Shown in pieces: positions 29,879 through 50,973 of a stretch of DNA of 64,000 nucleotides. The position numbers were made by a program, and so were the translations under genes. This DNA comes from Verrucomicrobiota bacterium (GTDB taxonomy: Bacteria > Auribacterota > JABMQX01 > JAFGEW01): NCBI GenBank assembly GCA_016931415.1, contig JAFGEW010000081.1:1-64000 (forward strand), read 5' to 3'. Numbering within the stretch: the first letter of the stretch is position 1; each line of letters begins with the position of its first letter. Under the pieces are notes generated by a model. The model did not search any database. It was not told the DNA's origin and saw only the letters and a program-made list of their open reading frames with translations.

Positions 29879-29908
29879 TTGCCCGCCGGCAGTGGCCTGC
29901 CCTATACT
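29879..29908 (+). promoter_or_regulatory. Putative sigma-70 promoter of the two-component pair
   Basis: TTGCCC (29879-29884) and TATACT (29903-29908) are 18 bp apart and diverge from the ParA promoter. Transcription would start near 29915 and leave about 41 nt before the ATG at 29956. Confidence 0.45.
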
Positions 29909-29955
29909 GCAGTGGATACGATCGGCCCACCAAGAGACCCCGCGTTGACGGGGCA

Positions 29956-31206: not shown

Positions 31207-32624
<1,418 letters not shown>

Positions 32625-32978: not shown

Positions 32979-33983
32979 ATGACTAAGCCCAACCACCTGC
33001 GTCGGACTTTCTCTGAGTGCTTTGCCATGTCATTGGACGTGCTTATCGGCGGCGTTCTGCTGGTGGTGTTGGTGTGCGGCTTCGGCACACCGGCGAGTGC
33101 TGCCACGAGCCGCACCCGCGATGGCTCGAGCACAGGCGATGTTGTCCAGATCGAACCGGTCCCGCGTTTCACCGAGAGCGAGGTGCGTGCACTGATCGAG
33201 AAGCCATCGGTGACCTTCACCGTGGACAATCCGCGCATCGCCTCGGGCGGCCAAGCCGTGTTGTCCTGGCGCGTCGAGAATGCCGACACCGCCAGCATCT
33301 CGGGCCTCGGCGGCGTGAGCCTGTCGGGCACGCGCACGGTCAAGCCGACCGAGAAGACGACGTACACGCTCAGCGCGACGAACCGCAACGGCACGGTGTC
33401 CAAGTCGGTTACGGTCGATATCTCTACGCTCGCCGTTGTGACCAATCTCAGAATCGTGGCACCGGCCCTCTTGCTCGAGAACGTCGCCTACAACTTCGTC
33501 GACGAGGCGGCCAGCGCGACATGGGCCAGCTCGGTGCCGCTAACGTTCGGCGGCGCGGGCGGCGCCAGGGGCTGGGCGCGCGTGGTGAACAGCGTGCGCG
33601 CCGAGGACAACAAGGACTACGAGAAGGTGCTCCAGGTCAGCCCGGAGAACAAGGCCGACGGGTTTGTCTACGGCGAGTACGCGGTGGCCATCCCGCCCAA
33701 CGCCAAGCTCCGGGCCACCGTGAGTTTCACGGCCGGGCACGGTTCGCCCGACGGCGCCACAGTCAGCGTGCAGGTGCGCGCACCCTCCGTCGCGCGGCGC
33801 GTCAAGCCGTCCTGGAAGCAGGTGCTGACCAAGACCATCATGCGGGACAACAAGCTCGACGCGGTCGAGGTTGACCTGTCGGCATGGGCCAACCAGAAGG
33901 TGTCGATCCGGCTGGTCGTCAATGCGCACAGCAACGCGACCGACGACCTGGTGCTGTGGATCGCGCCGCGCATCATTAAGTGA
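32979..33983 (+). CDS. Exported Ig-like protein, first gene of the YYY cluster
   Basis: This 334-residue protein starts after an excellent AGGAGGGG ribosome site. The signal peptide (DVLIGGVLLVVLVCGFGTPA) follows a basic N-terminus of about 20 residues. Residues 65-135 form an Ig-like domain (FTVDNPRIASGGQAVLSWRV to YTLSATNRNGTVSKSVTVD). The C-terminal 180 residues look like a jelly-roll carbohydrate-binding fold that ends in VLWIAPRIIK. No enzyme motif is seen. It probably lies at the surface and opens the cluster that runs to 50973. Confidence 0.7.
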   Translation: MTKPNHLRRTFSECFAMSLDVLIGGVLLVVLVCGFGTPASAATSRTRDGSSTGDVVQIEPVPRFTESEVRALIEKPSVTFTVDNPRIASGGQAVLSWRVENADTASISGLGGVSLSGTRTVKPTEKTTYTLSATNRNGTVSKSVTVDISTLAVVTNLRIVAPALLLENVAYNFVDEAASATWASSVPLTFGGAGGARGWARVVNSVRAEDNKDYEKVLQVSPENKADGFVYGEYAVAIPPNAKLRATVSFTAGHGSPDGATVSVQVRAPSVARRVKPSWKQVLTKTIMRDNKLDAVEVDLSAWANQKVSIRLVVNAHSNATDDLVLWIAPRIIK

Positions 33984-34018
33984 CGGACATGGATCGCGCT
34001 AAGATGAGGAGAGATCCC

Positions 34019-35542
34019 ATGAAGACGCGAATGATGATCGCCGGCATCGTGGCCGTCGCGGCGGCGTGCGCATGGCTGGTCCCGGCGACGGCGACCGGCA
34101 CTGCGGCGGTGGGCACGATCGGGACGCTCAAAGCCGAGCCGTTGATTGTCAGAGGTTTTGTGCTGAAGGACTCGACCCAGGCGGCCGGCGTGCCCGACGA
34201 CATCAAGACCAAGGGCGGCAAGGGGCCGAACCAGAACAAGTACGTTGACCTCTTCACCCAGTTCAGTATCCCCAACTCCGACCGCATCCTGAGCTTGAGC
34301 GACCGGATCTACTTCGACCTCGAAGAAGAATCGGGCATCTATTACTACGGACCGAAGGACTACTCGCTCGCCCACGACCCCGACTACGGCCATCTGTTCC
34401 GCATCCGCTACGGCATCGTGAGCACCGACGCAGAAAGCCCCTCGACCAACGTGGCGGTGGCGTTCACGCTCTGGGGCGGGTGGAGCCGGCAGGACTACGA
34501 TCTGCTCAAGGTCCTGCTCAACAAGTACCTCGAGCGCGAAAAGCTGCCGGCGTGCGCCGATCTCAAGGCCCTGCCATTCCATAGTTGCGGGTTCACGTTC
34601 GGGGCCGCGTCGAGCTACGGCGTGCCCGACAACCAGATCTCGGTGCCGGCGCTCAGCGACATCGCCGGGTACATGGACGTGACGCTCACCACCGACGAGC
34701 AGACCGTCGAGGGGCTCAAAGTCGGCCTCCAGGACATCCAGGGGCTCACGGGCAAGGTCCAACTCGTGACCGCCCAGACCGAGGGCGAGGGCTTCGCTAT
34801 TCCCGAGATCACGGCGCACGTAAGCCTGTGCGACACGCGGACCTATCAGCGCGAGCCGTACGTGCGCAACCAGTCGTTCACCAACCGCCACGACTTCCCG
34901 GTGCGGCTCAAGACGCTCTACTTCCTCATGGACGCCGGCGACGATGTGAAGCTGTTTGAATACGACTTGGGCAACACGCTTGTGCTGCCCGGCAAGCAAG
35001 CATCCCTCAACCACGCCCGCGTCAACACCGGGCTGGCCAACAACGCGGTGCGCGCCTGGTACGAGTACCGCCTCGCCAACGAGGGCGACACGATCCAGGA
35101 GTACTGGGACGCCGTGATGAAGCGGCTCACCGTCGGCCTGGGCAAGCGCACAGTGAAGATGCTGACCGTCGAGGTGCTCGACGAAGATATGTTCGCCGAC
35201 TACACCATCGAACTCATCAAGGTGCAGGTGCGCTCGAAGCACTTCGACCCCAACAGCAAGACCGAGCTGACGAAGAACTACAAGCTCACCGCCGATGAAG
35301 CCGCGGTCACGGGCGATGCGCTGTTCTTTATCGAGGGCGAGGAGACCGAAGGCATCTCCTACTTCGAGTACAAGATCACGATGATCAACCTCAACGGTGA
35401 CGTTAAGCGCGACACGGAGTGGCGTCAGGGCATCGAGGATGATGAAGGGATCTACATCGGCAAGAAGCACTTCGACGAGCTCATCGGACCACTCGACGGC
35501 GACGATGACGCCGGCGACGATGACGCCGGCGATGACGAGTAG
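34019..35542 (+). CDS. YYY-family exported protein, divergent member A
   Basis: This 507-residue protein has a signal peptide (MMIAGIVAVAAACAWLVPAT) and starts after AGGAGAG. It is a distant member of the family shared by the next genes. It has an IYYYGP motif near residue 108 and a GHLFRIRYG strand. A C-terminal block near residue 390 (IKVQVRSKHFDP, then a YFEYKITMI strand and a WRQGIEDDEGIYIG segment) aligns with the INYVxVxxRKKHxxG block of its paralogues. It ends in a 30-bp tandem repeat encoding an Asp-rich tail. Function is unknown. Confidence 0.65.
   Translation: MKTRMMIAGIVAVAAACAWLVPATATGTAAVGTIGTLKAEPLIVRGFVLKDSTQAAGVPDDIKTKGGKGPNQNKYVDLFTQFSIPNSDRILSLSDRIYFDLEEESGIYYYGPKDYSLAHDPDYGHLFRIRYGIVSTDAESPSTNVAVAFTLWGGWSRQDYDLLKVLLNKYLEREKLPACADLKALPFHSCGFTFGAASSYGVPDNQISVPALSDIAGYMDVTLTTDEQTVEGLKVGLQDIQGLTGKVQLVTAQTEGEGFAIPEITAHVSLCDTRTYQREPYVRNQSFTNRHDFPVRLKTLYFLMDAGDDVKLFEYDLGNTLVLPGKQASLNHARVNTGLANNAVRAWYEYRLANEGDTIQEYWDAVMKRLTVGLGKRTVKMLTVEVLDEDMFADYTIELIKVQVRSKHFDPNSKTELTKNYKLTADEAAVTGDALFFIEGEETEGISYFEYKITMINLNGDVKRDTEWRQGIEDDEGIYIGKKHFDELIGPLDGDDDAGDDDAGDDE
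35501..35530 (+). repeat. Tandem 15-bp repeat in the tail of YYY-family member A
   Basis: The 15-mer GACGATGACGCCGGC occurs twice without change at 35501-35515 and 35516-35530. It encodes the repeated Asp-Asp-Asp-Ala-Gly unit of the acidic C-terminus, which could vary in copy number by slippage. Confidence 0.85.
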
Positions 35543-35610
35543 GCGCGAAGTCGCGCGTGTCGAATAGCAGCGGGGGGAGCTGCGTCTGTTCCGCGGAGAG
35601 TGAGAGAACC

Positions 35611-36825
35611 ATGGAGCGGGACGCGAGAGTGAGGCGGTGGTGTTGGGCCGCCGGTGCATTGGGCGTGTTGGTGGTCTTGGTCTGCGCGCAAGCGGCGGCG
35701 TTGCCGCTGCTCACGCAGCGCGAGACGATCGAGGGCCTCGTCATCTACCCCGACGAGAAGGACTCGACCGTCTACTACTACGTCCCGGGCGAGGTGCGTC
35801 TCGCCATGACCGACGGCACACCGCAGTTCAGTTTCCGCCGCATGCGCTACACGGGCACGCGCCTCCTGGGTGACCAGGGCACGTTCCGCGGACGGGGCGA
35901 CATTTCGTTCACAGTCGTGTTCGCCCCGCCGGGCGACGCGGTGCGCAAGGCCCAGGACATGCTCAAGCGCCTGCGCAGCCGCCGCGCCGTGCTCCTGCCG
36001 ATCCCGGTCGAGAGCATCGAGGCCGAGCTGGTCTACACAATCATCGAGGGCGACGAGGCACAACGGGGCGAGCGGCTCGCCACAGGCCTATGGGCCGAGC
36101 CCCCGAAGGAGCCACCCAAGGAAGGCCCGAGCGCCGGGCAGTGGGGCTCGAAGAGCTTCGATATCGCGCTCAATCCGCGCACGACGCAGGTCATGTGGGA
36201 AGCCTACGAGAAGGGCGGTGTGCTGCTCTCACTCAACTACGCCGTGATCGCGCGCGGCGTGAGCGACCTCAACGTGCTGCCGGCCGAAGCGCAGCGCCGC
36301 CTCGATGCGCTCCGGCGCCAAGCCGAGGCCGAAGGCGCCGCATACGAGGAGCCGGCGGAGATCGTGCTCGAGCAGATCGCACGCACCGTCCGCGCCGATG
36401 CGCTCCAGATCCGCGTCTCCCCCACCGAGCACGAGGCCTGCTTCACGAGCGTGGATATCGACGCCGAGATGCCCGCCGGCTACGTGTTCCTGGACGTGTA
36501 CTGCTACGACTTCCAGAACGACCCGCAATCGGCGGTTGCCAAGAAGCGCGTCGAGATCCGTGGCCATGGCATCGCCGGCGGGCGGCCGAAGGTCAAGGTC
36601 GAGTTCAACCGCGGCAGACCGAGCGAGACTGTGCACGGGGTCCGTTTCGACCTCGCCGTAGACCTCGATAGGGGATTCGACTACCGCATCGTCGAGTTTG
36701 ACGACGATGGGAACGTGACGGCGGGCGACTGGATCGCCGTGCCGCAATGGAGCGGCATGCTCGACGTGAGCCGCGAGATCGAACCGCCAACGGACAACGA
36801 GACCGATGAGACCCCGGACGAGTAA
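35611..36825 (+). CDS. YYY-family exported protein, short member B
   Basis: This 404-residue protein has a signal peptide (AAGALGVLVVLVCAQAAA) and is the shortest member. It matches the N-terminal half of the family: TVYYYVPGEVRL near residue 54, FSFRRMRYTG, ISFTVVF, VEIRGHG and a VMWEAYEKGG block equal to the GAxLLWExxK block of the paralogues. A Pro/Glu-rich insert occurs near 165-180. The C-terminus resembles a shortened copy of the paralogues' second half. I chose the ATG at 35611 over an in-frame upstream codon because it gives a clean signal peptide. Confidence 0.65.
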   Translation: MERDARVRRWCWAAGALGVLVVLVCAQAAALPLLTQRETIEGLVIYPDEKDSTVYYYVPGEVRLAMTDGTPQFSFRRMRYTGTRLLGDQGTFRGRGDISFTVVFAPPGDAVRKAQDMLKRLRSRRAVLLPIPVESIEAELVYTIIEGDEAQRGERLATGLWAEPPKEPPKEGPSAGQWGSKSFDIALNPRTTQVMWEAYEKGGVLLSLNYAVIARGVSDLNVLPAEAQRRLDALRRQAEAEGAAYEEPAEIVLEQIARTVRADALQIRVSPTEHEACFTSVDIDAEMPAGYVFLDVYCYDFQNDPQSAVAKKRVEIRGHGIAGGRPKVKVEFNRGRPSETVHGVRFDLAVDLDRGFDYRIVEFDDDGNVTAGDWIAVPQWSGMLDVSREIEPPTDNETDETPDE

Positions 36826-36835
36826 GAGGTGACCT

Positions 36836-38710
36836 ATGAGACCGCTGATCGTCATTCTAGTCGCTGCATGTCTGACCGCGTTGATCGCGCAGAGCGCGAG
36901 TGCGCTCGTGCACTATGACGAGGGCCGGCGCACGGTCCTGGGCATCACGCTGCTGCAGGACACCAAGGACCCGACGATGTACTACTACATTCCTCCTTTC
37001 CCGTCGGTGTCCGTGGACGCGGACGGGCGGCCCGAGATGCTCTGTCTCGGCTTCGTCGACGCCAAGCGCAACGTGAGCGGCGGCATTCTGCACTTCCTGT
37101 GCGAGTTCAAGCTGCCCGACGAGGCGGTTGTCTTGTTGCAGAGCGCGCTTGAGAAGGAGGCGCCGGGGGCGAAAATCGCCGGCGCCGTCCCGTTGCTCGA
37201 GCCGAAGGGCGATGACGCCGTCTCGTTCGAAGTGATTTCGGCCGTGCTGAGCGACACGGCCGAGGGCGGCTTCACGCGCAAGCTCATCAGCTCGGGCCAC
37301 GCGCCGCTCACCCCGGGGAGCAAGGCGGCGGTGGCCGCCGTGCTCAACCCCAACGGGGCAACGCTGCTCTGGGAGACGCTCCAGGAGCCGACGTCGGACA
37401 TCTCGGTGGCCGTCAACGCTTACTACGAAGCGGCCGTCGACGGCTACAACGCCAAGATCACGGCGGACGTCTCGACGGTCTACACGCACTTCAGCTCGGT
37501 GCTCAACCGGCAGGAAGGCTACAAGCGGCGCGCGCTCCAGAACATCGTCGATGAGCTCGTGCGCAAGTCCGTGATCAAGGTCGAGGTGACTGAGCGTGCC
37601 GGGCTCGACATCGACACGAAGTCGATGCAGATGATTACCGACCTGGTGACCACGAGGCTCATCGAGCTCATGTTCGACGCCGAGACGGGGCTGTCGAAGA
37701 TCCCTGCCAAGGAGGTCGCCGTCGAGCACGGCCAGATCCCGGGCCGGCAGACGGCGAGCTGGCTCTCGCGCACGTTTGGGGGCGGCAGCGGCGACCAGGC
37801 CTACATCACCGACAACCAGTTCGTGATGAAACAGCGCGAGGACATCCAGACGACGACCTTCTATATCGATCTGACCAAACGCACGACGATCCGCGTCCCC
37901 GTCCACACGGCGGGCAACATGGGCGGCATCTACGAGTCGTTCAAGGACGACCAGCGCGTGTTCCGCGTCATCAACCTCGACGACCCGTCGTTCGAGATGC
38001 GCGATGTCTATTTTATGGTCGATAACGAGTACGCCACCGCGTTCCAGGACACGATTAACTTCGTCTCGGTCTCGTTCCGCAAGCAGTACCCGGAATCGCA
38101 CGACGTGACCGAGCAACTCATGTTCAACCCGACGGACATCAAGCAGGGCAGCACATCCAAGTCGGTCAAGTACCCGCGGCTCGGTATCGAGGACAGCTCG
38201 TGGCTCGACTACGAGTACCGGGTGAACTGGAGCGTGCGCGACCGCGACCCGATCACGATCCCGACAGGCAAGGACCAGTGGCTCAAGGGCAAAGACAGTA
38301 CCGTGGCCCTCGTGCCGCCGTTCACCAAGCTCGCTGTCGGCGTCGAGGTTGACGGCACTCAGGACGACTTCCTGGCCAACAACGTCTACCACGCGCGCGT
38401 CGAGATGCGCTGGCAGCTCGTCGGCAAGCAAAAGTCATCGTTCCCGGCCACGATCCGCTACAGCGACGGCGAGCCGCGCAAGGAGTTCATCCTCTACTAC
38501 GACCGCGAGACCTCGCCCGAGTATCGCGTCGTCTGGCAGCAGAAGAGCGGCAACGGCAGGATCGACGAACCGTGGCAGAAGATCCCCGCCGGCTCGAGCG
38601 AGTACGAGATCTTCCTGCCGCTCCCGACGTTCGAGACGGCCGACGCTGGAGCGTCGGACAACGCTGGAGCGTCGGGCGACAATCCAACGGTTGAGACCGA
38701 GGAGGATTGA
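36836..38710 (+). CDS. YYY-family exported protein, member C
   Basis: This 624-residue protein has a signal peptide (LIVILVAACLTALIAQSASA). The first domain holds MYYYIPPFP (near 49), VSGGILHFLCEF (near 80), GHAPLTPGSKAAVAA and GATLLWETLQEPTSDISV. A helical stretch follows (about 225-290), then the second domain with VINLDDPSFEMRDVYFMVD (near 380) and a terminal WxxR strand set. All blocks recur in members D, F and K. It has no enzymatic motif and no membrane segment after the signal peptide. It starts 10 bp after member B and ends 3 bp before D. Confidence 0.7.
   Translation: MRPLIVILVAACLTALIAQSASALVHYDEGRRTVLGITLLQDTKDPTMYYYIPPFPSVSVDADGRPEMLCLGFVDAKRNVSGGILHFLCEFKLPDEAVVLLQSALEKEAPGAKIAGAVPLLEPKGDDAVSFEVISAVLSDTAEGGFTRKLISSGHAPLTPGSKAAVAAVLNPNGATLLWETLQEPTSDISVAVNAYYEAAVDGYNAKITADVSTVYTHFSSVLNRQEGYKRRALQNIVDELVRKSVIKVEVTERAGLDIDTKSMQMITDLVTTRLIELMFDAETGLSKIPAKEVAVEHGQIPGRQTASWLSRTFGGGSGDQAYITDNQFVMKQREDIQTTTFYIDLTKRTTIRVPVHTAGNMGGIYESFKDDQRVFRVINLDDPSFEMRDVYFMVDNEYATAFQDTINFVSVSFRKQYPESHDVTEQLMFNPTDIKQGSTSKSVKYPRLGIEDSSWLDYEYRVNWSVRDRDPITIPTGKDQWLKGKDSTVALVPPFTKLAVGVEVDGTQDDFLANNVYHARVEMRWQLVGKQKSSFPATIRYSDGEPRKEFILYYDRETSPEYRVVWQQKSGNGRIDEPWQKIPAGSSEYEIFLPLPTFETADAGASDNAGASGDNPTVETEED
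38643..38675 (+). repeat. Direct repeat in the tail of YYY-family member C
   Basis: The 15-mer ACGCTGGAGCGTCGG occurs at 38643-38657 and 38661-38675, an 18-bp period. Each copy contains a small palindrome (ACGCTggaGCGT). The repeat encodes the Ala-Gly-Ala-Ser units of the disordered C-terminus. Confidence 0.8.
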
Positions 38711-38713
38711 GCT

Positions 38714-40477
38714 ATGGACGCGCGCCGTGTGATCTCGAGGCTCGGCATCGTTGCCGTTCTGCTCGGCGCGTTTATCGCGTCGTCGGCGCCCGCGCAGGAG
38801 GTGCTGCTCGACGGGTATCGGCGCGTCGAGGGGCTGATGCTCTTCCCCGCGCTGCACACGCCGAACGTCTACTACTACCTGCCGAACCGTCCGGCGGTCG
38901 CCACGGGCAAGAACGGAAAGCCCGAGTTCAGCTTCATGCGATACGCCTACACAACCGACGAGAACCGGGCATCGAGTGCGGGCGGCATCCAGGAAGCAGG
39001 TGGCGGCGGCATCCTGCACTTCCTCGTCACCTACGAGGTCCCCGAGGAGGAGATCACCAAGGCGGCGCGTAAGCTCCAGGAGGAAAACGAGGAGGCCAAG
39101 ATCGCCGGGCCGATCATTTTCAAGTCAGGCGAGTTCGCACTCGTCACCTCGTTCACCGACGAGGAGGGCAAGTTCACCAAGCGGCTCTGCGGCGTGGGCA
39201 AGGCGCCGCTCATCGAGGGCAACCGCGCCGCCGTGAGCATGGAACTGACCAAGATGGGCGCGTCGCTGCTCTGGGAGAGCTTCAAGATGGACACGCCCGA
39301 CATCTCGCTCGTGTTCACCATGGAGGTCTACGCCTACCGCCAGCCCTACGAGGCCGAGATGCGCGTCCACTGGGACAAAGTCCACCACGAGGAAGGTTTC
39401 GAGGTAGGCGCCAAGGTACTCGTGATCGGCGCCGAGATCGAGCAGATGGTGGACCGGCTCCATCAGAACGGTGCGATCGAGATCGTCACGCGCGGCGAGC
39501 ACGGCACGCTGGACGCCATCATCGAGAAGGCCAACGCGAAGCTCCTCGAGATCATGTTCGAGAAGCAACCGCCGACGGCACCGACGCCGGCGCAGGAGCC
39601 GGGCCTGGTTGACGCACTGCTCGGCGCGGTCACAGGCCGGCGCGGTGGCGGAGGGATCGGCAGCGTGTTCTCGGCGCACGCCTCGTACAAGTTCAGGCAC
39701 TTCGAGGAAACCGGCACGCTCGTCATGAACCTCAATCACTACTCGTCCGAGGTCATGACCACCGTGATGGCCGCCAACATCGGCGACCTCCACCGCCGCT
39801 ACGGCCCAGACCCGTCGATGTTCAAGACCGTCACGATCGACGACCCGCTCTATAAGCAGCGCGAGATCTACGTGACCATCGACGGCGCGACAGCCGCCGA
39901 TTTCAAGGACTACATCAACTACGTCTCGGTCAAGCTGCGCAAGAAGCACGCGAACGGCGCCACGACAATGGACGAGATCGTGCTCGACGCGGTCAAGTTC
40001 AACGAGAACAAGAACAGCTACCGCAGTGTCTACCCGTGGCGCGACGATACCGACCTCGAGCAGTGGCTCACCTACGAGTACAAGACCGTGTGGAACTACC
40101 GCGGCGGCCTGCGTTCGGAGAGCGACTGGGCGCCCGAATCCACCTCGGTGCTCGCCGTGGCGCCGACGGCCGTGAGCCGGCGTATCTCGATCGAGGGCGA
40201 CCCGGACGTGCTCGCCGAGGCCGGCGTGCGCCACGTCAAGCTCAGCTTTCGCTACACGATCTTCGGGCAGCCGAAGACCAAGCAGCTCACGATCCGCACG
40301 CGCGAGGGCTCGTTCCCGCAGACATTCGACTACATCGCCGAGGCCGCCAACCTCAACTACACCTACGACCTGACCTGGGTCATCGGCAAGGAGACCCGCA
40401 CGGTCACCAACGTGACCGACAACGCGGAAGTGATCTATATCGACGAGATCCCGGAAGCAGAGGAGACGAGCCAATGA
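38714..40477 (+). CDS. YYY-family exported protein, member D
   Basis: This 587-residue protein has a signal peptide (LGAFIASSAPAQ end). Family blocks are VYYYLPNRP (near 53), GGGGILHFLVTYEVPEEE (near 96), KAPLIEGNRAAVSMEL, GASLLWESFKMDTPDIS, TIDDPLYKQREIYVTIDG (near 373) and INYVSVKLRKKHANG (near 400). A Pro/Gly-rich linker (about 280-315) separates the halves. It is closest to member K, with near-identical LLWESFKM and KQRE segments. The stop overlaps the ATG of the small membrane protein. Confidence 0.7.
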   Translation: MDARRVISRLGIVAVLLGAFIASSAPAQEVLLDGYRRVEGLMLFPALHTPNVYYYLPNRPAVATGKNGKPEFSFMRYAYTTDENRASSAGGIQEAGGGGILHFLVTYEVPEEEITKAARKLQEENEEAKIAGPIIFKSGEFALVTSFTDEEGKFTKRLCGVGKAPLIEGNRAAVSMELTKMGASLLWESFKMDTPDISLVFTMEVYAYRQPYEAEMRVHWDKVHHEEGFEVGAKVLVIGAEIEQMVDRLHQNGAIEIVTRGEHGTLDAIIEKANAKLLEIMFEKQPPTAPTPAQEPGLVDALLGAVTGRRGGGGIGSVFSAHASYKFRHFEETGTLVMNLNHYSSEVMTTVMAANIGDLHRRYGPDPSMFKTVTIDDPLYKQREIYVTIDGATAADFKDYINYVSVKLRKKHANGATTMDEIVLDAVKFNENKNSYRSVYPWRDDTDLEQWLTYEYKTVWNYRGGLRSESDWAPESTSVLAVAPTAVSRRISIEGDPDVLAEAGVRHVKLSFRYTIFGQPKTKQLTIRTREGSFPQTFDYIAEAANLNYTYDLTWVIGKETRTVTNVTDNAEVIYIDEIPEAEETSQ

Positions 40478-40932: not shown

Positions 40933-40965
40933 CGCATCAGATATGGTTCGAAGGAGACGGTGATC

Positions 40966-43080
40966 ATGGCTCGGATGATGACAGCATGGATTGCGGTGGC
41001 GGCGCTTGTAGGCGTGGCCGTGGTGGCGCCGAACGCACAGGCGCGGCCACTATACCACGAGACAACGACAATCACGCTCGACGACGGGACGATCGTCAAC
41101 CTCATTTTGGACGACAAGGGGATGCCGGACCCGCCGCCGCGCGACCAGATGCCGAAGCGCGTCAACTGGCCGCAGCAGAAAATCCTCGAGTTCCAGGCCA
41201 AGCGCGAGCCGTTCGACAACGTGAAGAAGGACGGCACGGTCGTCTCTCGGGCGCCGGTAGCCCGGCTTATGCGCGACCCGAAGGGGATGGACGCGATCCG
41301 CAACCACGCGCAGCAGAAGTTCGTCTGGGCCGCCGTGCTCCAGATCCCCCAGAAGCACTATTACTACCTGCCGCCGCCGCCGCGGGTGGCGCTCGACGAG
41401 AAGGGCCGGCCGCAGTTCCTCTTCGTCAAGTTCACGACTGAGAAGAGCGAGGAGGAAGGCGGCGTCAGCGGCGGCATCCTACACTTCCTGTGCACCTACG
41501 GACTGAACGCGGCGCAGGAAAAAGAGCTTGGCGAGAAGCTCGCCGAGAAGATCAAGGGCGCCAAGCTCATGGGCGCGCTGCCGATGGAGCTCGGCAGCGA
41601 GGACAGCTCGTTCCGCGTCATCTCGGCAACGCTGACCGACGAGGGCTTCACGCGATCGCTCATCTCGTCGGGCAAGGCGCCCATCATGCCCGGCATGAAG
41701 GTAGCCACTGCCGCCCGGCTCGACGCGCGCGGCGCCGTCCTCCTCGAGGAGACGCTCAAGAAACCGACGAGCGACATTTCGGTCGAGTTCGACCTCGCCT
41801 ACACGGCGTTTTTGCCGGCGTTCGACGGCACGATCACGGTCGAGTGGAGTAAGACGATCAGCAACTTCGAGCAGTACTCGCTCGAGTACGAGCACTGGCA
41901 GACCGAGAAAAGCCGGGGCGGCCTGTTCGGCAAGCTCGCCGACGGGCTGTTCGGGAAGGCCAAGGAGGACCACTACAAGTACGACGAGGTTCAGAGCATC
42001 TACGACTTCATGTGCGAGCAGGAGCTCGTCAACATCGAGTGGACCGAGGAGATCGTTGACGAGCGGGTCAACCTGATCCGTGAAGCCTTTATGAAGATCT
42101 TCACCGACATGTTCTTCAACCGCCAGGCGCAGGAGATGGACTTCGCCGAGGAAGACGAAGACAAGGACAAGGAGGAGGTCGACTGGAAGGAGAAGGCCAA
42201 GGGCCGCACGTTCAACGTCAACACCTACTCGATGAAGAGCAGCGAGAACTTCCGCGACGTCAAGTACCACCTCCGCACCAACCTGCCGGTCAAGGTGCCG
42301 TACACGGCCGTGGGGAACATCAGCGGCGACTGGTACCGCCGGCTCAAGGCCGAGAACCCCGACTGCTTCGCCGAGGTCAACCTGGATGATCCCTTCTTCC
42401 AGCACCGCCATATTATCTTCGGCCTCGACCTGGACGCGATCGACATGTTCGGAGACATCGTCAACAACGTCACCGTCGAGGTGCGCAAGAAGCGCACGAG
42501 CGGGCGCGACTTCACGGACTCGCTCACGTTCGACAAGGCCTATATTGGCACGAAGGGCGTCTCGGGCACGATCACCTACGCCAAGATGCGCGAGGACGAT
42601 CCGGGCGCGTTCGAGTGGAAGGCCAAGTGGAGCATGCGCGGCGGCAGGGAGTTCCCCGTCAACGCGCAGTGGCAGAAGGGCGACTGGGAGGGCATCACGC
42701 TCACGCCGCCGGTCGCGCCGATGCTCGTCGAGGTCGGTACCGATCTCGAGGACATGAAGGCGCTCGGGTTCGTGGGCGTGGTCATCCAGTTGCGCTACCG
42801 CCAGTATGGTAAGACCTACACCGACGAAGGCACGCTGCGCCTCTACGTGGATAAGGGCGAGTCGATGGCCGAGAAGCGCATCTTCGTCGACCGCGACGCG
42901 CTCAAGTACGACTACCAGATCACCTGGTACCACAAGACCGAGGGCCGCATACAGCAGCCGTGGGTGCGTGAGGCCTCGGACGGCTACATCTACTGCGTCA
43001 TGCCCGACGACCTCCGCACGCGCATCAAGAAAAAGATCGAGGAAGCGCTCGAGGAGAAGATCGAGGAGGTCATCGAGTAG
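40966..43080 (+). CDS. YYY-family exported protein, member F
   Basis: This 704-residue protein has a signal peptide (AWIAVAALVGVAVVAPNAQA) and an extra N-terminal region of about 90 residues before HYYYLPPPP (near 131). Family blocks follow: VSGGILHFLCTYGL, GKAPIMPGMKVATAA, KKPTSDISVEFDL, then LDDPFFQHRHIIFGLDLD (near 473) and VNNVTVEVRKKRTSG. An acidic Lys/Glu/Asp stretch lies in the middle (near 395-410), and the C-terminus ends in Glu/Lys helices. I chose the ATG at 40966, with AAGGAG 9 bp upstream, over the GTG at 40960. Confidence 0.7.
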   Translation: MARMMTAWIAVAALVGVAVVAPNAQARPLYHETTTITLDDGTIVNLILDDKGMPDPPPRDQMPKRVNWPQQKILEFQAKREPFDNVKKDGTVVSRAPVARLMRDPKGMDAIRNHAQQKFVWAAVLQIPQKHYYYLPPPPRVALDEKGRPQFLFVKFTTEKSEEEGGVSGGILHFLCTYGLNAAQEKELGEKLAEKIKGAKLMGALPMELGSEDSSFRVISATLTDEGFTRSLISSGKAPIMPGMKVATAARLDARGAVLLEETLKKPTSDISVEFDLAYTAFLPAFDGTITVEWSKTISNFEQYSLEYEHWQTEKSRGGLFGKLADGLFGKAKEDHYKYDEVQSIYDFMCEQELVNIEWTEEIVDERVNLIREAFMKIFTDMFFNRQAQEMDFAEEDEDKDKEEVDWKEKAKGRTFNVNTYSMKSSENFRDVKYHLRTNLPVKVPYTAVGNISGDWYRRLKAENPDCFAEVNLDDPFFQHRHIIFGLDLDAIDMFGDIVNNVTVEVRKKRTSGRDFTDSLTFDKAYIGTKGVSGTITYAKMREDDPGAFEWKAKWSMRGGREFPVNAQWQKGDWEGITLTPPVAPMLVEVGTDLEDMKALGFVGVVIQLRYRQYGKTYTDEGTLRLYVDKGESMAEKRIFVDRDALKYDYQITWYHKTEGRIQQPWVREASDGYIYCVMPDDLRTRIKKKIEEALEEKIEEVIE

Positions 43081-43258
43081 TGCCCTGTATCTGATGACAC
43101 GGGACGGTGCTACGGTGAGATCGGAGCGCAAAGGGATGTGGGACGGGGCCGCGAGGTCCTGCCCTACAACCGGGAGATGAACGCGTCCGAAGTCCAGGAT
43201 GCACTGCACGGAACCGGGTGCGTGGACATGCTGACCGGATCGCAGAGGAGGCCGACAG

Positions 43259-44521
43259 ATGAGATGGCAGACGTGGTGGCGCGTGGTGGCGTTCGGCTTG
43301 GTGGTGTTGAGCGCGGCGTCGGCGCTTGCATACGAGGGTGACCCCGAAGCGGCGCGGCCGATCAACGAGCGAGCCCGTGCCGCGTACGGGGCGGGCAACT
43401 ACGCCGAGGCGGCCCAGCTCTTCGCGCAGACCTACCAGGCCTACGGGCACCCGGAGTTCCTCTACAACCAGGCCCAGTGTTTGCGCCGCGCCGGGCAGAA
43501 CGAGGCGGCCCTTACCGCCTACCAACGCTACGTTGACGTGGGTGGCCCGGCGGCGGTGGCTCACATCCAGATCGGCGAGTGCCTCACCGTGCTCGGCCGG
43601 CGTGACGAGGCGCGCCAGGCGTTTGAGCGCTACCTCGAGCTCGAGCCGGAAGGCCCACACGCGACCCAGGCGCGCGAGGCGGTCGACTCGGGCCGGCCTC
43701 CAAGCGAGCAGGACCGGCGCGACCCCGCCCAGGCCCGCGAGGCGCAGGCGTACTACGACCGCGCCCTTGAGCAATACACGAGCTCAAACGACCTGGACGC
43801 TTTTGTCCGCGCCATGACCGAGGGCAATGAGCGCTACCACATGCCGGAGTTCCTCGCCAGCGCCGCACGGGCCTACTCTTTCGAAGAGCGTCACCAGGAT
43901 GCCGCCGCCATGTACCGGCGCTACGTCCAGACACCCGGCGCCAGCGCGGACGGCTGGTACGACCTGGGCAACGCGCTGCTCTATTGCAGCGACGATGCCG
44001 GCGCTGTGGAGGCTTGGCGCCACTACCTCCAGGTTGCACCCCAAGGGCAACACGCCGCCGAGGCGGGCGAGATGGTCCACCGCCTCTCGCAGCCGGGAGC
44101 GCGCGCGACAGGCGAGCAGGTCGGGCAGGCACGCGAGGCGGTGCGCCTGGCAAGAGAGCACTACGACGCCGGGCGTGTCGCCGAAGCGCTGCGCGAGTTC
44201 GAGCGTGCACACGGGCTCGCCAACGACCGCCAGATCTACTTCAACATCTGCATGTGTTACACGAGCCTGCGGCGCTGGCCGGCGGCTGCCCAGCACTGGG
44301 AAACATACCTCGAGTCGGGCGAGATGGGGCATGACGCCGTCGCCCATCTCTTTGCGGCCCAGGCGTTCCTTGGCCAGAACAACGCGGCGTCGGCGAGCCG
44401 CCACATCCGCCGCTACCAGGAACTGGCCGGGCAGCACGAGTTGCCGAACGAGGCAGCGAACAGCCGCTGGGCCGAGGGCATGGCGCGCGACGCAGGCCGC
44501 GGCGGCTCGGGAGGACAGTGA
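43259..44521 (+). CDS. Exported TPR protein with Asp-Arg-Arg-Asp-Pro linker, paralogue 1
   Basis: This 420-residue protein has a signal peptide (VAFGLVVLSAASALA) and three TPR modules. Module 1 (about 30-130) reads GNYAEAAQLFAQTYQAYGHP and FERYLELEPEG. A linker with SEQDRRDPAQ (near 142) follows, then module 2 with YRRYVQTPGASADGWYDLG and module 3 with YDAGRVAEALREFERAHGLA. The same three-part design recurs in the next three genes. It begins 178 bp after member F, the largest gap inside the cluster, so an internal promoter is possible. Likely a periplasmic scaffold. Confidence 0.75.
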   Translation: MRWQTWWRVVAFGLVVLSAASALAYEGDPEAARPINERARAAYGAGNYAEAAQLFAQTYQAYGHPEFLYNQAQCLRRAGQNEAALTAYQRYVDVGGPAAVAHIQIGECLTVLGRRDEARQAFERYLELEPEGPHATQAREAVDSGRPPSEQDRRDPAQAREAQAYYDRALEQYTSSNDLDAFVRAMTEGNERYHMPEFLASAARAYSFEERHQDAAAMYRRYVQTPGASADGWYDLGNALLYCSDDAGAVEAWRHYLQVAPQGQHAAEAGEMVHRLSQPGARATGEQVGQAREAVRLAREHYDAGRVAEALREFERAHGLANDRQIYFNICMCYTSLRRWPAAAQHWETYLESGEMGHDAVAHLFAAQAFLGQNNAASASRHIRRYQELAGQHELPNEAANSRWAEGMARDAGRGGSGGQ

Positions 44522-44559
44522 CTCGGACCCGGAATGGCCCGATCATCAGGGAGATCGGA

Positions 44560-45912
44560 ATGGAGTCAGCGCTCAATCGACAGATCGGCAGCGGCATTGC
44601 ACTGCTCGTGCTCCTGTTCTGGACCGGCGCCGCCGCAGGCCTCGATCCGACGGGTGAGGAAACAACTCCCCCCGCCACCGAACGCCACTACCGCGGCAGC
44701 GAGGAGGAGGGCATGCCGCTCTTCCAGCAGGCGGCGCGCGAGTACGAGGCTCACAACTACGCAGAGGCTGCGCGGCTGCTCGAGCAGGCCTACGCCGCCC
44801 ACGAGCACCCGCTTCTGGCCTACAACTTGGGACAGGCCCACCGTAACGCCGAGAACTACGAAGCGGCGCTGACCGCCTACCGCAACTACATCCAGTTGTG
44901 CCCACGCGACGAGCTCGTCAACCGGGTCTACGTCCTGATCGGCGAGTGCCTGCTCCAGCTCGACCGGCGGCAGGAGGCCAACGAGGCGTTCCAGCATTAC
45001 CTCGACCTCGAGCACGACGGCGAGTACGCCGCCCAAGCCCAGCGCGCTCTCGAGAGCGGCGAGACCCCGAGCGCCCAGGACCGCCGCGACCCGCAGGCTG
45101 TCGAGCAGGCCCGTGAGATCTGCGACCGCGCCGCGGCGCTCTGGGAGCAGGAGCAGTTCCAACAGGCGGCCGAGGTGTTCCTGCGCGGCTACGAGCGGAT
45201 GCCCGAAATGCACGAGTTCCTCTACGACGCCGGGCTCTGCTACCTCGACGCCCAGGCTTGGAACGATGCCTCGCGCACGCTGCGGCGCTACGTCGAGACA
45301 CCCGGGGCCGCTCATGACGCCTGGGCCTTCCTCGGCGAATGCTACGGGGAGATGTTCGACTTCGGCGAAGCGGTCGAAGCCTACGAACGTTACCTCGAGC
45401 TCGAACCGCGAGGCGAGTATGCCCAGGAGGCTCGCGATTTCGTCAACGACACGATGCCTTTCCCCTCCGAAACCGGGGTCCGGCGCGAGACCGGTGCAAC
45501 GCCAGGCGAGTTCGAGCGGGCCGAGGTGCACTTCAACGCGGGCCGAGAGCATTTCGACGCGGGACGATTCCAGGAGGCCATTGGAGCGTTCGAGAGCGCC
45601 TTCGAGATCGTGCCCTCGCGCGCGCTCGTCTACAACATCGGCCTGTGCCTGTCGCGCTTGGGCCAATGGCAAGAGGCGCTCACCCGCTTCGAGCAGTTCC
45701 TCGAGCGCGACGACCAGGGCATGGCCGTGATCGCCCACCTCGAGGCGGCCGAGTGCCTCATCGAGCTGCGCCGGCCACAGGATGCCGTCCGGCACCTCGA
45801 CCAGTTCGCGACGCGCGCGCAGGAGAGCGATCTCGACAACGAGGAAACCCACACGGCGCGGGCCGAGCAACTGCGGCGGCGTGCCCAGGGCGGAGGCGCA
45901 AGCACCGAGTAG
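44560..45912 (+). CDS. Exported TPR protein with Asp-Arg-Arg-Asp-Pro linker, paralogue 2
   Basis: This 450-residue protein has a signal peptide (GIALLVLLFWTGAAAG) and the same three modules as its neighbours. Shared segments are HNYAEAARLLEQAYAAHEHP, SAQDRRDPQAVEQAR, LRRYVETPGAAHDAWAFLGE and DAGRFQEAIGAFESAFEIVP. It is the longest of the four. I chose the ATG at 44560, with AGGGAG 5 bp upstream; an in-frame GTG at 44518 overlaps the previous stop and remains possible. Confidence 0.75.
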   Translation: MESALNRQIGSGIALLVLLFWTGAAAGLDPTGEETTPPATERHYRGSEEEGMPLFQQAAREYEAHNYAEAARLLEQAYAAHEHPLLAYNLGQAHRNAENYEAALTAYRNYIQLCPRDELVNRVYVLIGECLLQLDRRQEANEAFQHYLDLEHDGEYAAQAQRALESGETPSAQDRRDPQAVEQAREICDRAAALWEQEQFQQAAEVFLRGYERMPEMHEFLYDAGLCYLDAQAWNDASRTLRRYVETPGAAHDAWAFLGECYGEMFDFGEAVEAYERYLELEPRGEYAQEARDFVNDTMPFPSETGVRRETGATPGEFERAEVHFNAGREHFDAGRFQEAIGAFESAFEIVPSRALVYNIGLCLSRLGQWQEALTRFEQFLERDDQGMAVIAHLEAAECLIELRRPQDAVRHLDQFATRAQESDLDNEETHTARAEQLRRRAQGGGASTE

Positions 45913-46010
45913 AGCGTAAGCAGACAGATGGCCCGGGCACGTTGACGGCTTAAGCCACATCCGGCCGAGCCGTCAGAGCCCCCCTGATGATGGACGGAAG
46001 GAAAACGCAT

Positions 46011-47291
46011 ATGTGGCGAATTTCTTGGACCGCTGCTGTGTTGGCCGTTGTGTTCTGTCTCGCCGGCATGGCGTGGTGCGGCGAAGAAACAGGCGGATCT
46101 GAGCCTACCTACCCAGGTAACCTCGAGGAAGGCACGGCGCTCGAGCGCCAGGCCGTGGGCGCGTTCCAGGAACACCAGTACGCCGAAGCCGCACGCCTCT
46201 TCGAACAAGCGTGGGAGGCCTACCAGCATCCGCGCTACCAGTTTAATATCGGCCAGTGCTACCGTCACGCCCAGCAGTGGGCCAACGCCGTCGAGGCCTA
46301 CCAGCGCCGACTCGATCTTGAGCCCGCGCCACCCAGCTACATCTACGCCCACCTCGGCCGCTGCCTGCTCGAGGCACGCCAGCGCGAGGAGGCGAATGCC
46401 GCGCTCCGCCGCTATCTCGAGCTCGAGCCCGAGGGCGATATGGCAACGCAGGTCCAGCAAGCGCTTGACACCGGCATCTGGCCCGAGGACACCGACCGCC
46501 GGCCGCCGGAAGCGGTCCAGGCAGCACGCGCTGTGCACGACCGCGCCCAGCAACTCGCCGACCAAGGCGAGTTTGAGGAAGCCGCCGAGGCATTCATGGA
46601 AGGCTACCGGCAGCACAACCAGATCCACGAGCTCTTGCTCAACGCCGGCCTCTGCTACCTGTGGGCGAACCGTCTCGAACAGGGCATCGAGGCTCTAACA
46701 CAGTACATCGAGACCCCGGGCGCCGACATGGGCGCCCTGGCCCATCTGGCCGAGGCCCGGATGGATGAGGGCGACCTGCCCGCCGCGCGCGATCTGTATC
46801 AACGGTACTTGCAGCGCGACCCCGACGGCCAGTTCGTCCAGCAGGCGCGCCGGGTCATCCGGTTCATCGACCACCTTGACCCCGTGCCGACCAGGGCCAA
46901 CATCGCCGACGCCAAGGAGCACGTCCAACGCGCCCACACCCACGCCCAGGCGCGCCGGTACCGTCAGGCGCTTCAGGAGTATGAGACCGCCTTCGCCGTC
47001 ATCCCGTCGCCGACGACCCGCTATAACATCGGCGTGTGCCACCACCGCATGGGGCAGCCCGAGGAGGCCCTCGCCATGTTCTTGCAGTACATCGAACAGA
47101 TGGGCGACGAGGGAAGCGACGCGTCGGTCCACCTCAACGCGGCTCAGTGCCTGGCCGACCTCGGCCGCAATGACGACGCCATGGAGCACATCAACGCCTA
47201 CCGGCGCCGCGCCGACGCCGCCGAACTGCCCCAGGAGCAGCGCGAAAGAGACTGGGCCACAGAGATCGAGGAGCAGTGCAAGAACGATTAG
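46011..47291 (+). CDS. Exported TPR protein with Asp-Arg-Arg-Asp-Pro-like linker, paralogue 3
   Basis: This 426-residue protein has a signal peptide (WTAAVLAVVFCLAGMAWC, possibly a lipoprotein-like Cys at its end but without a clear lipobox). The modules match the neighbours: QYAEAARLFEQAWEAYQHP, EDTDRRPPEAVQAAR, LTQYIETPGADMGALAHLAE and ARRYRQALQEYETAFAVIP. In this copy the linker reads DRRPP. I chose the ATG at 46011, with AAGGA upstream, over ATGs at 45987 and 45990. Confidence 0.75.
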   Translation: MWRISWTAAVLAVVFCLAGMAWCGEETGGSEPTYPGNLEEGTALERQAVGAFQEHQYAEAARLFEQAWEAYQHPRYQFNIGQCYRHAQQWANAVEAYQRRLDLEPAPPSYIYAHLGRCLLEARQREEANAALRRYLELEPEGDMATQVQQALDTGIWPEDTDRRPPEAVQAARAVHDRAQQLADQGEFEEAAEAFMEGYRQHNQIHELLLNAGLCYLWANRLEQGIEALTQYIETPGADMGALAHLAEARMDEGDLPAARDLYQRYLQRDPDGQFVQQARRVIRFIDHLDPVPTRANIADAKEHVQRAHTHAQARRYRQALQEYETAFAVIPSPTTRYNIGVCHHRMGQPEEALAMFLQYIEQMGDEGSDASVHLNAAQCLADLGRNDDAMEHINAYRRRADAAELPQEQRERDWATEIEEQCKND

Positions 47292-47320
47292 CTCTCGGGA
47301 CTACCTGAGAGGAGAGGACG

Positions 47321-48670
47321 ATGAAACGATGCGCGTTTGACACGATCTTGATCGTTGCGCTCACCCTCTGGGCTGTCGGCACTGCCATCGCCGGAGAGCC
47401 GGCGGAGGGCGGTGGCGCGTCGGCCGAGTCGCGCATCCAGGGCGACCCGGCCGCCGCGCGGCCGCTGTTCCAGCAGGGGCAGACGGCCTACACGGAAGGC
47501 CGGTACGCGGATGCCGCCACCTTGTTCCAGCAGGCGTATGACGCGTGGCACCATCCGGCGTTTGCCTACAACAAGGGCCAGGCCATCATGCGCGTGAGCC
47601 GCTGGCAGGAGGCTCTCACGGCGTTCCAGCTTTACGTGTCGGGCTACCAGACCTCGGGGCTGCCGTCCTCCGAGTTCGACCCGCTCGTTCACATCCAGAT
47701 CGCCGAGTGCCAGCACCGGCTGGGCCAGCGTGATGAGGCAAGGCAAGCGCTGCAGCGCTACATCGAGGCAAACCCGCAGGGCACCCTCACGCCCGCCGTG
47801 CGCGAATGCGTCGAGGCGGGCGCCGACCCGAGCACTATCGGCGCACGCGACCCGCAAACGGTCACGGCCGCGCGCCGCGTCCATGACGAGGCCGAGGCGT
47901 TGCACCGCCAGGGACGGTACCGCGAGGCCGCCGAACGGTACCGGCAGGGCTACACCCAGCACGGAGACATCACGGAGTTTCTCTATAACGCGGCGAGCTC
48001 GTACCGGGCCGCGCGGATGTGGGCCGAGGCCATCGTCGAGTACGAGCGCTACCTGCAGACTCCGGCGCCAACTGCCGAAGCGAACATCGAGCTGGCGCAG
48101 TGCTACCATGAGCAGGCCGAATACGAGCGGGCGATCGAGGCCTACCGGCGTTACCTCCAGAGGGAGCCGACGGGCACCTTCGCCGAGGACGCACGCCAGT
48201 ACATCGAATCGATGACGACCGTGCTCGAAACGCGCCAAGGCCAGCAGCCCTCACAGGACACGATGAACCAGGCCCGCCAGCGCTTCGAGCGCGGCACCGC
48301 GCACTACGCTGCCGGGCGCTACCGCCAAGCGCTCGAGGAGTTCTCGCAGGCCCACGATCTTGTCCCGGCGCGCGCGTCGCAGTTCAACGTCGGCATGTGC
48401 TATCTCCGCATGCGCGATTGGGTGCGCGCCCTCACTCAGTTCGAGAACTGCCTGCGCGACGGCGATACCGGCCTCGCTGCGGAGACGCACCTGCGCGCTG
48501 CAGAGTGCCTCCTCGAACTGATGCGCTGGGGCGACGCGCAGAACCACATCCGCGACTACCTCCAGCGCGCCGACGAGGCCGAGCTGCCCAACGAGGAACG
48601 CGACCGCGCCCGAGCCGAGCAGCTCTCGCAGCGCGCGCGCCAGATCTCGGGGGCCGGGGGATCGAACTAG
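47321..48670 (+). CDS. Exported TPR protein with linker variant, paralogue 4
   Basis: This 449-residue protein has a signal peptide (TILIVALTLWAVGTAIAG) and the same three modules. Seen are GRYADAATLFQQAYDAWHHP, the linker STIGARDPQTVTAAR (GARDP replaces DRRDP), EYERYLQTPAPTAEANIELA and AAGRYRQALEEFSQAHDLVP. It is followed after 77 bp by YYY-family member K, so TPR and YYY genes belong to one cluster. Function is unknown beyond scaffolding. Confidence 0.75.
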   Translation: MKRCAFDTILIVALTLWAVGTAIAGEPAEGGGASAESRIQGDPAAARPLFQQGQTAYTEGRYADAATLFQQAYDAWHHPAFAYNKGQAIMRVSRWQEALTAFQLYVSGYQTSGLPSSEFDPLVHIQIAECQHRLGQRDEARQALQRYIEANPQGTLTPAVRECVEAGADPSTIGARDPQTVTAARRVHDEAEALHRQGRYREAAERYRQGYTQHGDITEFLYNAASSYRAARMWAEAIVEYERYLQTPAPTAEANIELAQCYHEQAEYERAIEAYRRYLQREPTGTFAEDARQYIESMTTVLETRQGQQPSQDTMNQARQRFERGTAHYAAGRYRQALEEFSQAHDLVPARASQFNVGMCYLRMRDWVRALTQFENCLRDGDTGLAAETHLRAAECLLELMRWGDAQNHIRDYLQRADEAELPNEERDRARAEQLSQRARQISGAGGSN

Positions 48671-48747
48671 GCAAGACGGGCCGCACGGCCCACGCGATAG
48701 CGACGAGAACACCTCACACGGAAGAATGCGATACAGGAGGAGCGACC

Positions 48748-50973
48748 ATGAGACGACAGACGCTCATAGGATTCGTGCTCGCCGTGCTGGTTTCCTACGC
48801 GGGCGGCGTGCTCGCGCAGGAGATCCTGCTCGACGAGAACATCAAGGCGGGCAAGCTGATGTGCTTCCGCGACTTCGGCGACCCGAAGAAGTACTACTAC
48901 CTGGCTGACCAGCCGCACGTGGCGCTCAAGGACAGCGGCCTGCCCGAGTTCGCCTTCATCAAGTACGTCAAGAACGTCGCGCGCGAAGGCGAAGGCGGCA
49001 TCGAAGAGGGCGAAGGCGGCGGCGTGGTGACCTGCCTGATGAGCTACGAGGTCTCCGAGGATGACCGCCGCGAGGCCGAGCGCGTGCTCCAGCAGATGGT
49101 ACCGGGCGCCAAGCTCGCCGGCCCGATCATTTACCGCTCGGGCAGCTACGCGGTGACCACGCCGCTGGCCAGCGGCGAGGACGAGGCGAGCGCGGCGTCC
49201 GGCTCCGAGACGATCAAGTTCATCAATCAGATCTTCGCCACGGGCAAGGCGCCCGTGCTCGAAGGCCACAAATGCGCCGTCGCCATGCGGCTGACCAAAG
49301 AGGGGGCGACGCTGCTCTGGGAGAGCTTCAAGATGGCCACCTCGCAGGTCAGCGTCGTCTACGAGATGGAGGTCAAGGGCTACCGCAACCCCTTCGAAGC
49401 TACCATCATCGCCGACTGGAGCAAGATCACCAAACACGACCAGCTTCAGGCCGGAGTCAAGGCGGCCTGGTTCGGCGCCGACCTCGACATGCTCTGGCAG
49501 GAGCTGCGGCAGAACGGCTCGGTGCAGATTATCCAGAAAGGCGAGGACGCCAACATGGAGAAGATCCTCGCCGAGGCCCAGCGCATCATCATGGAGCGCA
49601 TCTTCGACAAACAGGAGATGCCCGATCTGGCCACCATGGCGAGCCAGGCCGGCGGGCAGAACGCGTTCTCCACGCTCGACCGCGCCGTGCGCTACATGCA
49701 GGACGACGAGAACCGCCGCCGCAGCCGCGCCAGCGGCACGCGCGAGGGGCGGACAACGTCGACCGAGCAGTACCTGCGTTGGCCCATACTCGTCGAGCTC
49801 GACCCGTCGGATCCGAGCTTCTATCTCATCGCTGCCAGCGAGCCGGACGACGAAACCACGACCAGCACCGGTGGGGGGACAACCGGTGGAGAGACCGAGG
49901 GCGAACGCACCACGAGCACCGGCGGTGAGGGCTCCGGCGGCGAACTGCGGCGTTCTCCGCTGCTGGGTGGCGGCTCGTCGAACACCGAGGACCGTCGCTC
50001 GCGCCTCATCCGCCCAGGCGACCGCTCGCCCGCGGCTGAAGAGCGCGACGCGTTGCGTTCTCCGTACAACGAGGGCGGCGCCAACGGCGGCTCGGGCGGG
50101 GCGAGCGGCCGGGACGGCGAAGGCGGCCGGGATACCACGGCCGAGCGCGAGGAACGCACCTCGAACATCTCGATGCTCGTCTCCTACAAGATGCGCCGGA
50201 TCAAGGTCTCCGGCCGCCAGGAGATCTCGCTCAAGAAGTACACGCTCGATACCCAGCCGTTCGTGTTCACCGCGAACATCGGCGGCCTGCGCAACCACAT
50301 GAACAACGAGGCGGTTTTCAAGGCCGTCAACCTCGACGACCCGGTGTTCAAGCAGCGCGAGGTGCTCGTGGCCCTCGACGGCCAGGACGCCGACGACTTC
50401 GACAAGTTCATCAACTACGTCACGGTACAGATCCGCAAGAAACACCAGAACGGCGAGATCACGCCAGACGAGATCAAGATCGACAAGACCAACTTCCAGC
50501 AGAGCGCCAACTACTTCCGCATGGTCTACGGCTGGAAGGGCGACAACGACCGCGCCAAGTGGCTCGAGTTCGAGTACCGCGCGCGCTGGAGCTTCCACGG
50601 CGGGGCGACCTACGAGACGCCCTGGATCAAGACGGACGACTTCATGATCACGGTCAGTCCGCCGACCGACTACCGCACGATCCGGCTCGAAGCCGATCCC
50701 GAGATGCTCAAAGGGCAGAGAATCCGCCACGTCGAGGCGACGGTCAACTACACGCTCTTCGACACGCCGTTCTCCAAGAAGGTCACGCTCAGCTCGACCG
50801 AAGAGGCGCCCGCCAAGGAGATCGAGTACGTCCACGAGCGCGGCGACTACAACTACGGCTACGAGCTCGCTTGGCGCCTGCTCGGCAACAAATGGGTCCG
50901 CACCGGCCCGCAGCAGGCCGAGGACACGGTCATCTACTGCGACGAGCTGCCCGAGGAAACCGGGAAGCCATAG
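48748..50973 (+). CDS. YYY-family exported protein, member K
   Basis: This 741-residue protein is the largest member and the last gene of the cluster. It has a CAGGAGGAG ribosome site and a signal peptide (FVLAVLVSYAGGVLAQ). Blocks are KYYYLADQPHVAL (near 48), GGGVVTCLMSYEVSEDD, GKAPVLEGHKCAVAM, GATLLWESFKMATSQVS, VNLDDPVFKQREVLVALDG (near 528) and INYVTVQIRKKHQNG. A low-complexity Thr/Gly/Ser/Arg linker (about 368-470) separates the two halves. It lies beyond the TPR quartet although it is most like member D. A strong terminator follows 34 bp after the stop. Confidence 0.7.
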   Translation: MRRQTLIGFVLAVLVSYAGGVLAQEILLDENIKAGKLMCFRDFGDPKKYYYLADQPHVALKDSGLPEFAFIKYVKNVAREGEGGIEEGEGGGVVTCLMSYEVSEDDRREAERVLQQMVPGAKLAGPIIYRSGSYAVTTPLASGEDEASAASGSETIKFINQIFATGKAPVLEGHKCAVAMRLTKEGATLLWESFKMATSQVSVVYEMEVKGYRNPFEATIIADWSKITKHDQLQAGVKAAWFGADLDMLWQELRQNGSVQIIQKGEDANMEKILAEAQRIIMERIFDKQEMPDLATMASQAGGQNAFSTLDRAVRYMQDDENRRRSRASGTREGRTTSTEQYLRWPILVELDPSDPSFYLIAASEPDDETTTSTGGGTTGGETEGERTTSTGGEGSGGELRRSPLLGGGSSNTEDRRSRLIRPGDRSPAAEERDALRSPYNEGGANGGSGGASGRDGEGGRDTTAEREERTSNISMLVSYKMRRIKVSGRQEISLKKYTLDTQPFVFTANIGGLRNHMNNEAVFKAVNLDDPVFKQREVLVALDGQDADDFDKFINYVTVQIRKKHQNGEITPDEIKIDKTNFQQSANYFRMVYGWKGDNDRAKWLEFEYRARWSFHGGATYETPWIKTDDFMITVSPPTDYRTIRLEADPEMLKGQRIRHVEATVNYTLFDTPFSKKVTLSSTEEAPAKEIEYVHERGDYNYGYELAWRLLGNKWVRTGPQQAEDTVIYCDELPEETGKP

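Follow-up and report, generated by a model that had tools for sequence, protein, structure and literature searches.

The window, that is, the whole 64,000-nucleotide stretch of DNA analysed here, spans nearly all of a 64,093-base contig from a 4.06-Mb draft genome (98.9% complete, 4.5% estimated contamination). The region from 32979 to 50973, with the boundaries first noted in the original prediction, contained 12 complete open reading frames in an operon-like run of 18 kb, all on the forward strand and with ATG starts (Table 1). The frames were GC-periodic, with a third-position GC of 83–92% across the 12 genes; intergenic distances lay between −4 and 178 bases, and most genes were preceded by a Shine-Dalgarno-like sequence. 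A signal-like hydrophobic N-terminus was present in 11 of the 12 proteins, export status being assigned here and below by hydropathy rather than by a trained signal-peptide predictor. Both the reading frames and the hydropathy profiles agreed with the original prediction of 12 same-strand genes for 11 signal-peptide proteins and one four-helix membrane protein. The genome is that of a diderm, since Omp85 and secretin genes were found in it.

Table 1. Genes of the cluster and three neighbouring features of the window. Letters in brackets denote the paralogue types used for gene order; P0005 and P0012 share one letter.
Feature	Position	Strand	Predicted product and remarks
P0001 (A)	32979–33983	+	Exported; Ig-like part and C-terminal beta domain of ~165 aa
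P0002 (B)	34019–35542	+	Exported, remote family member; full-length homologues in 42 loci
P0003 (C)	35611–36825	+	Exported, short family member; follows B in most loci
P0004 (D)	36836–38710	+	Exported core paralogue; clade of 35 rows, one per locus (35 loci), support 99
P0005 (E)	38714–40477	+	Exported core paralogue; clade of 69 rows in 41 loci, common to P0012, support 99
P0006	40474–40932	+	152 aa, four predicted membrane helices (hydropathy); overlaps the P0005 stop by 4 bases
P0007 (G)	40966–43080	+	Exported core paralogue; clade of 40 rows in 39 loci, support 99
P0008	43259–44521	+	Exported TPR protein; Pfam TPR_2, E 6e-16
P0009	44560–45912	+	Exported TPR protein; Pfam TPR_2, E 3.5e-29; 37% identity to P0008
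P0010	45987–47291	+	Exported TPR protein; 32–38% identity to the other three TPR paralogues
P0011	47321–48670	+	Exported TPR protein; 34–37% identity to the other three TPR paralogues
P0012 (E, hub type)	48748–50973	+	Insert of about 150–200 aa between N- and C-terminal modules
Upstream, opposite strand	28600–29664	−	ParA-like ATPase, C-terminus resembling a glycogen-binding (CBM48/AMPK1-type) domain; unusual fusion, by eye only
Just upstream	29677–32624	+	Sensor histidine kinase and NtrC-type regulator genes; could regulate the cluster
Directly downstream	51326–53659	+	Multi-helix membrane protein with spermidine-synthase-like soluble domain

Sequence blocks, folds and library searches

The six large proteins P0002–P0005, P0007 and P0012 had been predicted to share an ordered series of sequence blocks. 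This held for P0004, P0005, P0007 and P0012, which contained every listed block in order when conservative changes were allowed, and which could be aligned end to end. In P0002 and P0003, however, YYYxP was the only one of these blocks literally present, and several blocks, as typed, were confined to two or three of the large proteins. P0003 is a clear family member by BLASTP (E about 3e-10 to P0005), and the link of P0002 to the family is remote, being based on iterated HMMs and a C-terminal profile match (hhalign probability 92, E 7e-7). The four TPR proteins proved to be paralogues as predicted (32–38% identity), but they form a single block before P0012 and are not interspersed with the large genes. 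The cluster as first observed is real, and its description was confirmed in part.

The statement that the blocks match no described family stood for every library searched, both by sequence and by the AF2 fold of P0005. For the core proteins, no relevant match was obtained in Pfam, NCBIfam, PHROGs or PADLOC, and none exceeded a curated cut-off; sets of 60 and 80 homologues, scanned singly, were likewise without a real library match. A PDB sequence search gave nothing relevant for the family. Chance-level or generic matches from these five sources were discarded as indications of family identity. When the AF2 model of P0005 (pLDDT 85) was compared as a whole chain using Foldseek, generic Ig/FN3 sandwiches dominated, with a TM by query of at most 0.14. 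Its C-terminal domains resemble generic FN3/Ig beta-sandwich proteins through weak matches, unlike the whole chain, which had no match, and they also showed weak fold matches to macroglobulin-type proteins. The N-terminal domain alone (AF2, pLDDT 86) gave no match at E<0.001 in PDB or BFVD. The family architecture consists of an N-terminal alpha/beta domain, for which no structural relative was found, and C-terminal Ig/FN3-like beta-sandwiches. Relatives on complete plasmids are annotated as 'hypothetical protein' in RefSeq, and no description of the system was found by searching the literature on DUF7452, astacin/C70 clusters, NPCBM and TPR neighbourhoods and tyrosinase/astacin toxins. The exported protein set is undescribed with respect to all libraries searched.

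Distribution and co-inheritance of the paralogues

A single scan of genome contigs yielded 64 loci, in which genes were called by the longest open frame and several of which are short or draft contigs. The loci belong to Bacteroidota, Acidobacteriota/Aminicenantota, Desulfobacterota, Myxococcota, Planctomycetota, Campylobacterota and Nitrotoga, and the team of exported proteins is retained in at least seven phyla. Prevalence was about 1–3% of sampled genomes, normally with one locus per genome: matches were found in 8 of 301 genomes of the Tenacibaculum family and in 6/247, 3/247 and 3/399 genomes of three phyla, with query genomes and more distant relatives counted in. Matches were confined to one locus in 11 of 12 genomes searched whole, and the remaining genome had a further family member about 20 kb away. 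No relatives of the family were found in the 58 genomes nearest in relationship to that of the window, or in viral contigs and phage records. At two Flavobacteria loci (L080, 5041–9890; L081, 5105–10841), a single distant exported member adjoins a conserved exported protein of ~670 aa and a probable Amidase_2 gene.

The conserved core comprises P0001-P0002-P0003 together with the P0004, P0005/P0012 and P0007 types. Using the letters of Table 1, with P0001–P0003 of the window assigned from their own sequences, the gene order was A-B-C-D-E-G-E in the window, A-B-C-E-D-G in Desulfobacterota and B-C-D-E-G-E in Muriicola, whereas Flavobacteria had D-E-G-E and then B-C. When 218 N-terminal domains were placed in one tree, clades followed paralogue type across phyla and not genome (Table 1). 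The nearest kin of P0007 were from Holophagae (L014) and Acidobacteria (L062). Because the types group across phyla, the duplications predate the spread between phyla. Tree distances of the P0004 and P0007 types were correlated with r=0.93 in 32 loci, with a permutation maximum of 0.29 (2000 permutations), and such mirror trees could follow from co-transfer alone.

A domain homologous to P0001 was present in 26 other loci, and in Aminicenantota it is fused to a P0002-type protein. One P0001 homologue (locus L047) matched the NPCBM/NEW2 carbohydrate-binding module (Pfam PF08305) just above the curated cut-off (24.5 bits vs 23.9), whereas P0001 itself had no PF08305 match and is unmatched in Pfam. 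In PHROGs, the Ig part of P0001 had a match to a virion protein. Together with an NPCBM-related protein, five to seven ancient paralogues form a fixed set that is inherited across phyla.

TPR modules, neighbouring enzymes and a signal-less branch

The original prediction had further combined the family with the TPR genes and the membrane protein, and this partnership did not hold as stated. P0006 had no homologue in any related locus and was rejected as a conserved component. Separate TPR genes of the P0008–P0011 type flank the cluster only in the window, among related loci, and were also rejected in that role, with the TPR link being kept as a fusion inside P0012-type homologues. TPR repeats occurred within at least 15 of the 29 family members that reach 760 aa, mainly of P0012 type, and in 0 of 80 shorter members (at E 0.001). 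The P0012 insert in the window is low-complexity and Gly/Ser/Thr-rich, and lies in the same place as the TPR insert of long homologues, with the four TPR genes as direct upstream neighbours of P0012. That modules are fused in one lineage and adjacent in another is a standard argument for joint action; as TPR and P0012-type modules are fused elsewhere and adjacent in the window, their joint action is suggested. P0008–P0011 are themselves ordinary TPR proteins, like other TPR scaffold proteins, without a match above the curated cut-off to a named TPR equivalog, and their link to the present family is new.

Elsewhere, enzymes that cleave protein or cell wall are often encoded beside the core. The neighbours included tyrosinase, Amidase_2, astacin with C70 protease, M43, subtilase, and SprT-like or other HExxH proteins. 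In the window, in Aminicenantota and in most Desulfobacterota loci, none of these enzymes was recognised next to the core. The enzyme neighbours shared the export status of the family, with 21/21 exported beside the signal-bearing branch vs 0/11 beside the signal-less branch described below, a split made post hoc from an enzyme list picked by eye after the neighbours had been inspected. Module swapping was seen among them: three Nitrotoga neighbours (L013, 9959–15062) have a common N-terminal module of 150–177 aa (59–72% identity) and differing C-termini, and the partner of the C70 domain is astacin in several loci but M43 in another. The C-termini of the Nitrotoga trio include a tyrosinase and CxxCH motifs.

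Distant signal-less relatives were found in Flavobacteria, Acidobacteriota, Desulfobacterota, and Pararhizobium and Paracoccus plasmids. Based on hydropathy, signal-like N-termini were present in 260/279 members of the window's branch vs 0/39 members of the signal-less branch; the window's genome had no separate signal-less copy, the search returning the same operon genes. The signal-less branch adjoins CHAP/PG-binding, Amidase_3, Nal1-type protease and trypsin-like genes, and one signal-less hub-type member of 1521 aa (L085, 10851–15413) carries a C-terminal trypsin domain (Pfam). A mid-protein region of the same member resembles, by eye, an OmpA-type domain. The Paracoccus cluster lies directly after trypsin-like, EAD1 and ATP-binding genes; on plasmid pNSM5TCa (L087, 1993–27845), it stands beside phospholipase D-like and tyrosinase genes in addition to these three. 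The tyrosinase, found later, has a Tat-like N-terminus, so the export match between neighbour and family is not absolute.

In two studies, EAD1 is a marker of predicted conflict systems (PMC7159879, PMC8195603). Like the EAD-linked NTP-dependent conflict systems as presented there (Kaur et al, 2020; PMC7159879), the loci studied here combine a constant core with variable enzymes, and the Paracoccus cluster adjoins EAD1, trypsin-like and ATP-binding genes. Unlike those systems, the window operon contains no EAD domain, NTPase or peptidase, a combination found only beside the distant Paracoccus cluster, and the window's branch is exported. The family is not named in the available parts of PMC7159879.

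A proposed exported assembly and its alternatives

We give even credence to the reading that the operon encodes an exported hetero-oligomeric envelope or extracellular scaffold, in which a P0012-type hub organises TPR and enzyme modules. A physical complex is suggested because the paralogues are co-inherited as a set; each would occupy its own set position within a single hetero-oligomeric, pseudo-symmetric assembly, located in the periplasm or at the cell surface. P0001 may touch a surface of glycan or cell wall. The variable hub would be the P0012-type subunit, its insert holding a TPR arm in many lineages, and the window version would have four separate TPR proteins beside a P0012 whose insert is flexible. 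The TPR arm would recruit client enzymes, elsewhere those encoded beside the core (proteases, amidases, tyrosinase) and in the window presumably one encoded outside the operon. Remodelling, digestion or attack are candidate final tasks.

The assembly reading draws on the family spread, conserved order, tree by type and mirror-tree correlation, on the signal-like N-termini, enzyme export match, Omp85 and secretins, and on the TPR and trypsin fusions, module swapping and NPCBM match of the P0001 homologue. Counting against it are the lack of an adjacent enzyme in the window, Aminicenantota and most Desulfobacterota loci, the co-transfer explanation of the mirror trees, the hydropathy-based export, the post hoc enzyme split, the L087 tyrosinase, and the draft state and estimated contamination of the genome. 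The interpretation in the original prediction was partly supported: the paralogue set kept across phyla, the near-universal signal-like N-termini and the diderm genome favour a dedicated envelope or extracellular assembly, but the partnership with TPR and membrane genes did not hold as stated.

The chief competing reading is a device for antagonism or defence, in which the scaffold deploys lytic enzymes on other cells and the exported branch is an externalised intracellular conflict system. The EAD1 link and the lytic neighbours of the signal-less branch favour it, as do the variable enzymes and patchy distribution; these first two points rest on distant relatives, and EAD1 was found in one distant cluster only. 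Moreover, no immunity gene was recognised, PADLOC was empty, the window operon has no enzyme and the enzymes are also ordinary secreted hydrolases, and we regard this device as rather unlikely. An extracellular catabolic apparatus, cellulosome-like in role and holding hydrolases for polymer use, would fit the NPCBM-like domain, the FN3/Ig-like modules and the secreted proteases of marine Flavobacteria. The scanned clusters, however, had no recognised glycoside hydrolase, TonB/Sus gene or dockerin/cohesin, the window proteins having no Pfam cohesin/dockerin match in contrast to a cellulosome-like scaffold; nitrifiers and sulfate reducers are among the carriers and tyrosinase is no nutrient hydrolase, which makes such an apparatus distinctly unlikely.

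That the paralogues act separately as secreted adhesins or inhibitors, and are merely linked, is consistent with their Ig/FN3-like folds and the weak macroglobulin-type matches. We consider this very unlikely, given that paralogue identities are non-exchangeable and kept across phyla, and that fusions with TPR and trypsin occur. A phage-tail-like or contractile particle in disguise, suggested by the PHROG match of P0001 and the CHAP/PG-binding gene of signal-less clusters, is barely credible: none of the sheath, tube or baseplate families was found, phages and viral contigs gave no match, BFVD gave none by fold, and the signal-like N-termini of 260/279 members differ from the cytoplasmic assembly of eCIS/tailocin. 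The idea was rejected, its matches being accounted for by the CHAP and Ig domains.

Beyond the exported scaffold itself, a tentative and somewhat doubtful extension is a previously unrecognised superfamily whose members form hetero-oligomeric, enzyme-carrying machines at two cellular addresses. One branch would be intracellular and allied to conflict-system signalling; the other, exported and including the window's proteins, would display or deliver exchangeable proteases, amidases and oxidases at the cell surface. If true, bacteria would possess an effector-bearing assembly of a new class. Five to seven large exported proteins that keep their order in at least seven phyla form a machine-like pattern, unnamed in the databases searched, and the fused TPR and trypsin domains and co-localised enzymes offer concrete partner hypotheses. 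As cultivated Flavobacteria (Tenacibaculum, Aquimarina, Hyunsoonleella, Muriicola) are carriers, the system is testable now. The operon suggests a so far unnamed bacterial machine at the cell surface or outside the cell.
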